Notes under the pieces: generated by a model | The model's input: only the letters and a program-made list of their open reading frames with translations | Databases searched by the model: none | What the model was told of the DNA's origin: nothing | DNA from: Gemmatimonadota bacterium | Lineage (GTDB): Bacteria > Latescibacterota > UBA2968 | Direction of reading: 5' to 3' | Length of the DNA: 35,134 bases | Assembly (NCBI GenBank): GCA_026706845.1 | Contig: JAPOXY010000169.1 | Coordinates: 1 to 35,134, forward strand | Made by a program: the position numbers and the translations under genes | Shown: positions 2,818 to 7,096 of the stretch, piece by piece | How positions within the stretch are numbered: position 1 is the first letter of the stretch | Layout of the letters: every line of letters begins with the position of its first letter

Positions 2818-4560
2818 TCATATACTTGCTGTTTTTTCATACAAATGGGCATAAACTCCATTTTGCATGGCTAACCAATCGTGCGTTCCTCGCTCTGCAA
2901 TTTGTCCCTTATCCAAGACCACAATCTCATCTGCACTTTGAATGGTTGAAAGTCTGTGTGCGATGATGATGGTTGTCCTACCTTGTCGCACGGTTTTCAA
3001 TGCCTCCTGGATGTGATATTCGGATTCCATATCCAGCGCGGCGGTGGGTTCATCCAAAATCAAAATGGGCGTATCCATTAACAGCACGCGAGCCAGTGCA
3101 ATGCGCTGTTTCTGGCCCTCTGACATCTGCGCCCCTTGTTCTCCTACCAGTGTTTCATATCCCTCAGGTAGTGACGCGATAAAGTCGTGGATGTACGCTG
3201 CCTGTGTTGCATCCTGAATATCTCGCAAGGGTATGTCGTGTCCAAAGGTCAGGTTGTCCAAAATACTGCCTTGAAATAAGGTGCTGCCCTGCATGGCAAA
3301 TCCCACTTTTTGCCGGATGGATTTCAAGCGATAGTTCCGAATATCGTACCCATCAATAGACACATATCCCTCTTGTGGGTCGTAAAATCTCGGGATCAAT
3401 TTTGCAAGTGTGGATTTACCTGAGCCACTTTTACCGACCAGTGCAATGGTGGTCTGTGCGGGTATGTGCAGGTCAACGTGGTGCAAAACGGGCCGGTCTT
3501 TTTGACTTGCCTGCGCGCCGCGCGCAAGCAGGTACGAAAAACTCACATTGTGAAAATCGATCTCACCTCGTACCTGTGGCAAGGTGGGCATATCGGAACG
3601 ATCCTGGATTTCGGGTCTCAAGTCATAGATCTCAAAAAACCGATTGATGCGAACCAGAGCCATTTCAACCTGCCCCACGAGGCCAATGAGATTGCCGATT
3701 GGACCGTAGAGATACCCCACATAACCGGAAAAAGCTATGTAACTTCCCAGAGAAAGATTGCCATTTAGCACTTCTGTCCAGCCATACCAGCCATACGTCA
3801 GGGTACCCACTATCTTCACCAATGTTCCTAAAAACCCAAATCCCCCACTTAAATGCGTTGATCTGATTCGCAATTTTGCAACATCGAGGATGAGGCCTCT
3901 GAGCTTGTGATAAAACACGGTTTCTAATCCCAGTGCTTGCACTGTCCGGATGCCCGAAAGCGATTCGTAGGACTTGGCAGATGACTCGGCCGATGCTTCG
4001 GCCATTTTCTTTGACACTCTACTAAGGTATTTTTTTGACACAATAATCAATGTAGTATCAAAAGGTAGCACCGCCAGGCTCAGTAAGGCCAGTTTCCAGT
4101 TGATATAAAGCAAAATGGGGGGAAAAATGAGCAACTGAAGGGTGTTCATAATCAGGCTATTCACCATTCCGATCGTACTGCTAATAGATCTGTCCATATC
4201 TCTGAATCGAGACAGGATTTCGCCCGTCTGACGGTTGTCAAAAAAGCTGAAGTCCAACGATTGCACATGGGAGTAAAATCGCGATTTGAAATCCAGTCCC
4301 ATATTGACACCCACGTAACTACTAAAATATCTGCTTAACAGTCCCGTAAATCCTACCCCTGTCGAAAGCACAGCACCTATAATCAGAACAAAGGTCAGGA
4401 GCGTGTAGTCTTTGTGAGGATACACGTCATCGATCAAGACCTTCGTTATGTACGGTCCTGGAATCTTGAAGAGCATGATCATGATGCCCACGAGGAAGGA
4501 CTGGAAGATAAACCGCCAGTAAGGACGGAGCATTTTGATGATTTTGAATATCTGACGCAC
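2818..4560 (-). CDS. ABC exporter, fused permease and ATPase
   Basis: 580 residues, the usual length for a type IV (MsbA-like) half exporter. An N-terminal six-helix membrane domain (about 1-310) is followed by an ATPase domain: Walker A GKSGSGKST (376-384), Q-loop Q424, signature MSEGQ (479-483), Walker B ILILDE (499-504) and switch His H535, all intact. There is no N-terminal C39 leader peptidase, so cargo cleavage would fall to another protease, such as the CPBP or S8 enzymes of this locus. A 10-15 residue insertion near 345-358 is unusual. It starts with GTG 2 bp after the HlyD stop, with AGGAAC as ribosome site. It presumably works with the adjacent adaptor; no TolC-like gene is in the window. 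Confidence 0.93.
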   Translation of the reverse strand: MRQIFKIIKMLRPYWRFIFQSFLVGIMIMLFKIPGPYITKVLIDDVYPHKDYTLLTFVLIIGAVLSTGVGFTGLLSRYFSSYVGVNMGLDFKSRFYSHVQSLDFSFFDNRQTGEILSRFRDMDRSISSTIGMVNSLIMNTLQLLIFPPILLYINWKLALLSLAVLPFDTTLIIVSKKYLSRVSKKMAEASAESSAKSYESLSGIRTVQALGLETVFYHKLRGLILDVAKLRIRSTHLSGGFGFLGTLVKIVGTLTYGWYGWTEVLNGNLSLGSYIAFSGYVGYLYGPIGNLIGLVGQVEMALVRINRFFEIYDLRPEIQDRSDMPTLPQVRGEIDFHNVSFSYLLARGAQASQKDRPVLHHVDLHIPAQTTIALVGKSGSGKSTLAKLIPRFYDPQEGYVSIDGYDIRNYRLKSIRQKVGFAMQGSTLFQGSILDNLTFGHDIPLRDIQDATQAAYIHDFIASLPEGYETLVGEQGAQMSEGQKQRIALARVLLMDTPILILDEPTAALDMESEYHIQEALKTVRQGRTTIIIAHRLSTIQSADEIVVLDKGQIAERGTHDWLAMQNGVYAHLYEKTASI

Positions 4561-4562
4561 GT

Positions 4563-5849
4563 TCAGTTCCTGATCTGTATAGTTTCAGAGGATTCTTCCA
4601 ACCGATAAATCTCAGGACGCCCAATTTTGCCCACAGTTTTCAAAAACTTCTTCCACAGCAAGTCAACAATGGGACCGCGCTCTGTCACAATTTTGGCTTC
4701 CACACCCATGCCATAAGCAAGAGGACATTCTTTCTCACCATCAGATAAATGCGGATCTATCACACTGATCTTCACGGGATAAACAGCACTCATACCACCC
4801 GGCACGAGACCGGCGCCCATAGGTGTGATGGGTTCGGGCTTTCTCGGCACATCTGTCACCTTTCCCTCAAAAATCTTGTATTCCATGTGTGGAAAAGCAT
4901 TTACATATATCCGCACCTTATGTCCCTCTTTCACCTTTGGGATATCCACTTCCTGGATCATCACCTCAGCTTGCCAACTGTGCAATTCGGCCAGTTCAAT
5001 CACGGCCTCACCTGCCTCAATGCGGTCTCCTTCGCGTTTATCCAAATCGCGCGTCAACACGGTTCCAGCAACGGGTGCGTAGATCTTCATCTGTTCCATA
5101 CGGGTTTTGACAAGGCGATGGCTGACCTGTAATTTTTCATACGTCTGTTTTAGCATCTCGTGTTCCTGCTTGCGATTGTCCAGAGCAGCCAGCCGCCGTT
5201 TTGCCCGCTCAATTTCTACTTTTGCACGTTGCACCCGCGTCTGGTGTACCCGAATTGGAATCAACGTATCAACAGGCGGTCGCATACTCCCATCCTCGCG
5301 ATAAGGTGCGTATTTGCGGTAGATCTGGTATTCTTGCCGAATCTGTTCCAATTGCAACTGCGCGGTCTCATATTCCACTTCAGTTCGTGCAATCTCTGTT
5401 TTCAAAACAGCACGCTCGCGTTGCAATTCTGCTACCAGAGCCACACGCCGCCCCTGATTTATACCCAGTTCATGTTCGAGTTGCTCCAATTCCGTACGTA
5501 AATCGGTATCATCCAGAATCAGCATCAAATCCCCCTGTGCAATCTCTTGCCCGTGTTGCACATGAACCGTCTGGATCAAGCCAGATCGTTGTGCTTTCAC
5601 TTCATAACGCGCGGTGGGCTGCAAGCGACCTTGCCCTGCAACCGTAATTTCCATGCCCAGATGCCATCCCAAAAGACAGATAAACGCGACCATGCTTCCC
5701 ACAACGCACAAAATGGTGAGTAAGAAATAGCGTACAAACCGGAAGCCAATTCCCGAAGTTGAGAGGGCTTCTCGCGCCTCTGTATTTTCAAAAGACACAT
5801 CTTTTTGTGGATAGCCATTGAATCTTACAACCTGTTCGCTATGTGCCAT
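4563..5849 (-). CDS. HlyD-family periplasmic adaptor (membrane fusion protein)
   Basis: 428 residues. A short cytoplasmic N-terminus is followed by one membrane segment (about 41-61), a lipoyl-like strand pair (GLIQTVHVQHGQEIAQGDL), a long coiled coil rich in Glu, Arg and Gln (about 112-240), the second lipoyl half (MKIYAPVAGTVL) and a beta-barrel domain. This is the layout of type I secretion and peptide-export adaptors that bridge the inner-membrane ABC exporter to an outer-membrane channel. The ABC gene follows after 2 bp, so the pair is almost certainly one export machine. The start ATG at 5847-5849 has only a weak ribosome site (GAG). An outer-membrane partner is not encoded in the window. 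Confidence 0.93.
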   Translation of the reverse strand: MAHSEQVVRFNGYPQKDVSFENTEAREALSTSGIGFRFVRYFLLTILCVVGSMVAFICLLGWHLGMEITVAGQGRLQPTARYEVKAQRSGLIQTVHVQHGQEIAQGDLMLILDDTDLRTELEQLEHELGINQGRRVALVAELQRERAVLKTEIARTEVEYETAQLQLEQIRQEYQIYRKYAPYREDGSMRPPVDTLIPIRVHQTRVQRAKVEIERAKRRLAALDNRKQEHEMLKQTYEKLQVSHRLVKTRMEQMKIYAPVAGTVLTRDLDKREGDRIEAGEAVIELAELHSWQAEVMIQEVDIPKVKEGHKVRIYVNAFPHMEYKIFEGKVTDVPRKPEPITPMGAGLVPGGMSAVYPVKISVIDPHLSDGEKECPLAYGMGVEAKIVTERGPIVDLLWKKFLKTVGKIGRPEIYRLEESSETIQIRN

Positions 5850-5905: not shown

Positions 5906-6712
5906 TCAGACATCTTCCGAAGACGGCTGAATTTCTCCGTACCTAACTTTTTTGCGATACTGGGTAGGGGCAATGCCATGTATTCTCTTGAAGGCATGAC
6001 AGAAACGACTTGACGAATGAAATCCACATAGTGGTGCAATTTCATATATAAACAGGGATGATCCTGTTAGAAAATGCTCTGCCTGCGATATTCTGATTTC
6101 TCGCAATTTTTCGCGGAAGGTTTTGTTAAAAAATTTTTTGAATAGCACATGACAGTGCGGTGGGGTAATCCGAAAATGGCGTGCGAGGTCTTCAAATTTC
6201 AGGTCTGGGTTTCTGTAACGCTCCTCCAAAAATGATTCCAACGCCTCTGGTGATACCTTCTCTCGGCCAGTGTTTAAGAGCTGTTGAAAGGATCTGGGCT
6301 GTGAACGGGATGCTTCACTGGTCCGCGACACATTATATTCCACTTCATTCAGCAGGATACAGGTTTTGACCTCTGCTAAAAATTTGTCCTTCACAATCGG
6401 TTTATCCAATACGCCTGTAGTACCGGCCTTGAGTATTTTTTCGGTTACTTCCATGGGCACAAAACTTTCCATGATCAGGATGTTTGTCTGAATTTTCTCT
6501 GCTGCAGCGCGCTCCAAAAGCGCGATCCCATCAAGACCTGCCATATACATTTCAGCGATGGCGAGATCAATCTTCTCACGTCTCAATATTTCAAGTCCTT
6601 CTATCCCATCTCTCGTTGTGCTTATGTCATAAGGTTCATCGCTCAGAAATCCCACAAGGGTCGATAGAATGCTGGGGTCGTGATCTATAATCAGTATTTT
6701 CTGTTTGTTCAT
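5906..6712 (-). CDS. Receiver-AraC regulator with Glu at the phosphorylation site
   Basis: 268 residues: an N-terminal receiver domain (about 4-125) and a C-terminal AraC-type double helix-turn-helix (about 160-262, ending CGFHSSSRFCHAFKR...PTQYRKK). The acidic pair D10/D12 and the conserved Lys in DKPI are present. The phosphoacceptor position reads DLAIAE-MYMAG, so Glu (E54) replaces Asp and the usual following Pro is Ala. Glu at this site often mimics phosphorylation or marks a receiver not driven by a kinase. GGAG lies 6 nt before the ATG. It is the first gene after a sigma-54 promoter and 56 bp upstream of the HlyD gene, so it probably controls, or is part of, the export operon. It has no AAA+ sigma-54 activation domain. 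Confidence 0.93.
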   Translation of the reverse strand: MNKQKILIIDHDPSILSTLVGFLSDEPYDISTTRDGIEGLEILRREKIDLAIAEMYMAGLDGIALLERAAAEKIQTNILIMESFVPMEVTEKILKAGTTGVLDKPIVKDKFLAEVKTCILLNEVEYNVSRTSEASRSQPRSFQQLLNTGREKVSPEALESFLEERYRNPDLKFEDLARHFRITPPHCHVLFKKFFNKTFREKLREIRISQAEHFLTGSSLFIYEIAPLCGFHSSSRFCHAFKRIHGIAPTQYRKKVRYGEIQPSSEDV

Positions 6713-6799: not shown

Positions 6800-6828
6800 T
6801 AAATAGATATATGCAACATGTGTGCCAA
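6800..6828 (-). promoter_or_regulatory. Sigma-54 (-24/-12) promoter of the regulator-export operon
   Basis: On the minus strand TGGCAC (6827-6822), five bases and TTGCA (6816-6812) match the sigma-54 consensus TGGCAC-N5-TTGCW exactly. The predicted start is near 6801, giving a leader of about 88 nt before the regulator ATG. A sigma-70-like reading overlaps it (TTGGCA, 17 bp, TATTTA at 6805-6800) but matches less well. Its position just upstream of a regulator and secretion gene set makes chance unlikely. Confidence 0.75.
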
Positions 6829-6926
6829 TGTGGAATTTTAAAATGATAATTTTTATAAAGTATTATTTTTACTTTGCATAGAGGTTATTATCGAGTAAAA
6901 GTCAGACTGAATATCGAATTGAGAGT

Positions 6927-6971
6927 TGAACACATTGTTCACTTTTCGTCTTTCGATTGAACATTATGTTC
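6927..6971. promoter_or_regulatory. Two identical-armed dyads, probable enhancer or operator pair
   Basis: GAACA-CAT-TGTTC at 6928-6940 (the arms extend by one base each side to 6927-6941) and GAACA-TTA-TGTTC at 6959-6971. The centres are 31 bp apart, about three helical turns, so two dimers would bind the same face. Relative to the predicted sigma-54 start near 6801 they lie at about -133 and -164, the usual range for enhancer sites. The right dyad also ends 12 bp before the -35 box of the rightward promoter, so the pair may control both directions. The binding protein is not identifiable from the window. Confidence 0.7.
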
Positions 6972-6983
6972 TTTTACTTTGTA

Positions 6984-7012
6984 TTGACAATCGCACTTCA
7001 GGTCGCTACTTT
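6984..7012 (+). promoter_or_regulatory. Rightward sigma-70-type promoter
   Basis: A perfect -35 TTGACA (6984-6989), a 17-bp spacer and a weak -10 TACTTT (7007-7012). No protein-coding gene follows on this strand; instead there is a terminator about 80 bp downstream, which suggests a small RNA. The dyad pair lies immediately upstream. Confidence 0.5.
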
Positions 7013-7018
7013 AGTCTA

Positions 7019-7096
7019 ACCTTCTCAAGTTATCAGCTTGAGATATTTGCCGCCGCTGACAGTTGACTTTGCCGAGTCTTGTCAGCGGCTTTTTTA
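7019..7096 (+). ncRNA. Candidate small RNA of about 78 nt
   Basis: The predicted transcript begins about 7 nt after the -10 box and ends in a T-run. It forms a 7-bp hairpin (7023-7029 with 7037-7043, loop TTATCAG), a short linker, then the 10-bp terminator stem. Neither visible neighbour gene is on the plus strand, so a plus-strand terminator here needs its own short transcript. No known RNA family is recognised. The exact 5' end is predicted only from the promoter. Confidence 0.45.
7052..7096 (+). terminator. Intrinsic terminator, plus strand
   Basis: A 10-bp perfect stem, GCCGCTGACA (7052-7061) with TGTCAGCGGC (7080-7089), and an inner GACT/AGTC pairing in the loop, followed by six T at 7090-7095. 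The minus-strand reading has no T-run after the stem, so it works rightwards only. Confidence 0.8.

Follow-up and report, generated by a model that had tools for sequence, protein, structure and literature searches.

A predicted sigma-54 promoter with paired upstream dyads at a REC-AraC/export locus of Latescibacterota recurs at comM, radC, and comEC

Introduction

NtrC/PspF-type sigma-54 promoters combine a −24/−12 element with paired palindromic sites that lie some 100-165 bp upstream and share one face of the helix. The locus described here resembles them in this architecture, and its genome likewise encodes rpoN and activators of the AAA+ class. The dyad found here, GAACA-N3-TGTTC, differs from the TGT-N10-12-ACA motifs prevalent in Clostridiales (PMC6615313) and from the TGT/ACA groups of Desulfovibrio (PMC4641369), and competence is unmentioned in both of these surveys of sigma-54 regulons. 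For Ralstonia solanacearum, sigma-54 (rpoN) is required for transformation, an effect proposed to be exerted via the pilin gene pilA, and the authors state that competence regulated by rpoN had not been reported before (PMC4371752). In contrast to that case, comEC, comM, and radC have their own predicted sigma-54 promoters here.

LuxO, together with sigma-54, controls the Qrr small RNAs. As in that system, a 5-3-5 dyad of a predicted sigma-54 activator is situated near a small-RNA gene at our locus; unlike in that system, a promoter of the sigma-70 type, facing away, precedes the small RNA, and it is a protein-coding operon that the sigma-54 promoter would drive. The genes comEC, comM, and radC belong to some late-competence regulons, i.e., those of CRP-S/TfoX in Haemophilus and Vibrio and of ComX in streptococci, which employ other regulators and promoter types and no sigma-54. 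The three gene names occur together in papers on pneumococcal regulons. Direct sigma-54 control of comEC, comM, radC, or a REC-AraC/export locus was not found in the open-access literature searched, where the Ralstonia study was the one case linking rpoN to competence and nothing closer came up; such an absence is not proof. Competence control is unknown in most uncultured phyla. Here we follow up an initial annotation of a stretch of DNA of 35,134 nucleotides, the whole of which is referred to as the window.

Results

The Predicted Sigma-54 Promoter

The initial annotation had read a minus-strand TGGCAC-N5-TTGCA as matching the sigma-54 consensus at all defined positions, and this is verified to the base at 6827-6812 (Table 1). 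The spacing between GG and GC amounts to 10 nt, as required, and the predicted start of transcription was counted from C(−12) at 6813. By base composition, about 1e-4 exact −24/−12 elements are expected by chance in the 567-bp intergenic region. Genome-wide motif scans, all of them pattern searches, detect 59 sites of TGGCAC-N5-TTGC and 8 of a reversed-pattern control, so that roughly six in seven exact matches are likely real. Four MacB/FtsX-type ABC permease-like genes, apparently of one family, are preceded by exact −24/−12 elements as well (L093 on C52, L102 on C89, L106 on C100, and L112 on C134). As to sigma-54 itself, rpoN is encoded in one copy (E 1.9e-58), so that the promoter cannot be dismissed on the grounds of a lacking sigma factor.

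Table 1. Positions of predicted promoter elements, dyads, small RNA, and genes in the window.
Feature	Position	Strand	Remarks
Sigma-54 −24/−12 element, TGGCAC-ACATG-TTGCA	6812-6827	−	predicted +1 = 6801
Proximal activator dyad (predicted), GAACA-CAT-TGTTC, GAACACATTGTTC	6928-6940		centre −133
Distal activator dyad (predicted), GAACA-TTA-TGTTC, GAACATTATGTTC	6959-6971		centre −164
Sigma-70-type promoter, TTGACA (6984-6989)-N17-TACTTT (7007-7012)	6984-7012	+	drives small RNA (predicted)
Small RNA of about 78 nt	7019-7096	+	invariant 5' hairpin CUCAAGUUAUCAGCUUGAG, linker, terminator hairpin, U-tract
REC-AraC response regulator, first gene after promoter	5906-6712	−	PF00072, PF12833
HlyD-type periplasmic adaptor	4563-5849	−	PF13437, PF16576; TIGR01843 below cut-off
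MsbA/HlyB-like ABC exporter, no peptidase domain found	2818-4560	−	PF00664, PF00005
142-aa protein, presumed same operon	2255-2683	−	no Pfam match
TPR-repeat protein, presumed same operon	1207-2214	−	
CAAX-type (Rce1-like) membrane protease, presumed same operon	336-1088	−	PF02517

All eight close REC-AraC homologues examined keep the −24/−12 element, two of them with a single substitution, and an alignment of 16 loci shows 99% conservation at its defined positions as against 85% in its spacer. A paralogous locus of the same genome (C87, 44% identical) also retains the element, with ACAGA rather than ACATG as spacer, though its dyads are broken. On such evolutionary evidence, the predicted sigma-54 switch at the REC-AraC/export locus looks real.

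Paired Dyads and the Divergent Small RNA

Equally borne out are the two exact GAACA-N3-TGTTC dyads, 31 bp apart and centred at −133 and −164. For the 567-bp region, base composition predicts 6e-4 exact dyads taken singly and 6e-10 exact pairs at a distance of 31 bp. When up to 3 mismatches are allowed, dyad pairs occur in 11 of 11 genomes of the genus, where the control gives 0 matches; outside the genus, matches at this threshold are rare and isolated. The dyads sit between two divergent promoters, the sigma-54 promoter on the minus strand and a sigma-70-type promoter on the plus strand. Their best-kept part consists of the inner half-sites, TGTTC-N18/19-GAACA, each of which faces the other dyad. 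The outer half-sites are poorly kept, and that of the distal dyad decays in several relatives and is among the least conserved parts. Since the spacer from the small RNA to the promoter is well conserved throughout (about 0.86), the dyads are not singled out by conservation alone. Elsewhere in the genome, the lone exact dyads L010, L013, L014, L015, L018, and L019 lack a good partner and seem mostly coding by inspection, and a paired match at C214:15247 displays codon-like conservation and was likewise judged coding.

The divergent promoter and the small RNA with its intrinsic terminator had been overlooked in the initial annotation. TTGACA and much of the promoter spacer are conserved over close loci, and the RNA is predicted to fold (z −6.55) into two hairpins, one at the 5' end and one belonging to the terminator. 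Two base pairs, both of the terminator stem, show compensatory changes; because it hardly varies, the 5' hairpin yields no covariation evidence. Three copies of the RNA exist in this genome. A covariance model identifies 34 matches in the genus, spread over 10 of its 11 genomes (2-5 per genome), and none in the 53 other genomes of the phylum that were searched, and no Rfam match was obtained at E up to 1. Duplex tests against the starts of the window genes, comM, radC, and comEC gave nothing convincing (best z −2.5 in 39 tests). A REC-AraC gene adjoins the small RNA at 27 of the 30 loci examined, on the opposite strand at every tabulated locus. This pairing is a second, separate novelty, and the RNA is restricted to the genus.

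Orthologous REC-AraC genes of the genus are preceded by the same combination of −24/−12 element and dyad pair; close relatives of the protein come from MAGs labelled Latescibacterota and in some cases Poribacteria or Gemmatimonadota. Among 26 distinct tabulated REC-AraC loci, 17 possess a −24/−12 element near the gene, and a dyad pair (up to 5 mismatches) is present at 14 of these 17 and at none of the other 9, counts that are not independent as the loci share descent. This distribution bears on the possibility that the dyads serve as operators for the promoter of the divergent small RNA and that the −24/−12 element is inert or otherwise activated. The dyads do lie just upstream of TTGACA-N17-TACTTT, their centres falling some 54 and 85 bp before the RNA start, and nearly every REC-AraC copy has the small RNA alongside. 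However, at REC-AraC loci dyads are encountered only together with a sigma-54 promoter. Furthermore, four loci (L240, L245, L250, and L252) have the RNA upstream of the REC-AraC gene with neither dyads nor a nearby −24/−12 element, so that the RNA does not need dyads, and dyads together with −24/−12 elements precede comM, radC, and comEC, where no copy of the RNA was found. An operator function for the small RNA therefore seems improbable, and these patterns are most simply explained if the dyads belong to the sigma-54 promoter rather than to that of the small RNA.

The distant paralogues L232 and L244 have the −24/−12 element and no dyads. Together with their homologues L032 and L033, they carry TGGCACGGATATTGC 60 bp before the gene, and this 15-mer is found at several other sites of G000, perhaps representing another activator's regulon.

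DNA-Uptake Genes

Further copies of the dyad upstream of −24/−12 promoters, for which the initial annotation had proposed a search, are found at comM and radC and, in degenerate form, at comEC. Paired dyads and a conserved −24/−12 element precede these three genes in nearly all of the 11 genomes of the genus, and matches above curated cut-offs (TIGR00361 for ComEC, TIGR00368 for YifB/ComM, and RadC) establish their identities. At comM (C73, G000), GCACATTTTGTTC-N19-GAACAGATTGTTC is located 66 bp before TGGCAC-ACTCC-TTGCC; in alignments, the dyads and TGGCAC-N5-TTGCC are constant and the intervening sequence varies. At this gene, the −24/−12 element and a CGTTC/TGTTC-N19-GAACA core persist even in another family of the order. 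For radC (C60, G000), the arrangement GAACAGCATGTTC-N19-GAACATTGTGTTG before CGGCAC-N5-TTGCC is conserved. The −24/−12 element of comEC (C54), TGGCACGAAAATTGC, is invariant in 10 of 11 genomes, G008 having TGGCACAAAAATTGC, and is accompanied by a degenerate pair of dyads 21 bp apart, of the form GAACATTTTTTTC-N8-GAACAGTTTTTTC. Altogether, the pairs are spaced by 21, 31, or 32 bp and lie roughly at −80 to −165, upstream of conserved −24/−12 elements. Among the promoters examined, the pair is convincing at only four operons. These comparisons support a predicted sigma-54/activator regulon composed of late-competence genes and the REC-AraC/HlyD-ABC operon, and we infer competence physiology from gene content. 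While the AAA+/sigma-54 mechanism proposed initially is thus strengthened, a regulon for competence and DNA processing had not been foreseen.

Gram-positive LexA boxes have GAAC/GTTC half-sites, and the half-sites of the dyads resemble them; as radC and comM act on DNA, the dyads might be thought of as LexA-like SOS boxes (GAAC-N5-GTTC) that repress DNA-repair-like genes. Yet their spacing is N5 as opposed to N4 in the LexA box, and at the operons examined, REC-AraC, comM, radC, and comEC, they form phased pairs well upstream of the −24/−12 element instead of lying over the promoter as a repressor site would, which makes SOS control very unlikely.

Genes Downstream of the Promoter

That the export locus is under an AAA+ activator, as had been suggested, is supported by the conserved promoter and dyads, with the qualification that the first gene encodes the REC-AraC regulator and that export functions follow later in the presumed operon (Table 1). 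The REC-AraC protein matches PF00072 and PF12833 and shows no sigma-54 activation domain, in agreement with the earlier statement that it lacks the required domain. AraC-family genes commonly have paired sites upstream, and the REC-AraC gene is the nearest regulator gene, but it is highly improbable that its product binds the dyads and autoregulates its own operon, given that AraC-type proteins usually bind direct repeats and are without the AAA+ domain that sigma-54 needs, that dyad-less REC-AraC paralogues persist, and that comM, radC, and comEC have the pair with no REC-AraC gene noted as neighbour.

Candidate Activators

The sigma-54 activation domain (Sigma54_activat) has 27 matches in the genome, about 20 of them full-length. 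None is encoded on this contig, in line with the expectation that the cognate activator lies outside the window, and no autoregulatory dyads were found in the activator regions examined. One candidate is a PspF-like protein of 340 aa (contig C63) with Sigma54_activat and HTH_8 and no sensor domain, picked for its UvrD-like helicase neighbour and the only activator profiled for co-occurrence. The gene of this helicase (L081, 1248-4481, minus strand) is directly downstream, possibly in one operon. Most genomes of the order with a dyad-bearing comM also encode an orthologue of the C63 protein. Co-occurrence of the two gives a Fisher p of 0.0002 over 31 genomes and of 0.11 within the order, uncorrected for ancestry. 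G001 and G010 possess dyad sites and no strong match to the candidate in their assemblies, and G004 and G013 possess a C63-type protein and no comM match. The PspF-like protein is thus a candidate lead rather than an identification, and that it is the cognate activator seems possible at somewhat less than even chances.

Other activators of the genome differ in size and architecture. L067 (C174) and L070 (C233) are frames of more than 1500 aa in which, by inspection, protein kinase, AAA/TPR, and GAF regions are followed by a sigma-54 activation domain, and they were read as large sensor-activators. Open frames of roughly 900-1100 aa are represented by L080 (C200) and L082 (C136), and also by L074 and L076-L078. 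The frames that were read begin like the beta-propeller repeats of two-component regulators ('GNLWIATLSGLSHFDG'), suggesting propeller-sensor sigma-54 activators.

Discussion

It is likely, in our judgement, that sigma-54 and one AAA+ activator acting through paired dyads drive the REC-AraC/export locus, comM, radC, and comEC. According to this model, which is built on sequence comparisons, sigma-54 RNA polymerase would bind the −24/−12 element at 6812-6827 and be held as a closed complex. The paired GAACA-N3-TGTTC dyads, separated by three helical turns, would be bound by two dimers of a single AAA+ enhancer-binding protein, which would then assemble and, by looping back, use ATP to open the complex. 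Transcription would begin near 6801 and proceed through the REC-AraC regulator gene and then the HlyD/ABC exporter as a presumed operon. The same activator would act at comM and radC and, through the weaker 21-bp-spaced pair, at comEC, and because it would serve these three genes, the export module would form part of a late-competence sigma-54 regulon. The divergent small RNA would be transcribed from its own sigma-70 promoter, independently of the dyads.

More tentatively, and with the balance leaning against so broad a scheme, a sigma-54 competence programme of Latescibacterota might be envisaged in which one activator, perhaps the sensor-less PspF-like protein of C63, governs uptake by comEC, processing by comM and radC, and the REC-AraC/HlyD-ABC export module, whose regulator genes are each paired with the new small RNA. 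In that case the exporter could secrete an antagonistic peptide or a signal and so couple the uptake of DNA to its release.

A regulon that is defined by sequence, comprising a motif, a promoter class, targets, and a candidate activator, makes competence control testable in Latescibacterota. Uncultured bacteria of this group may switch on DNA uptake and export jointly, by a route not described elsewhere.
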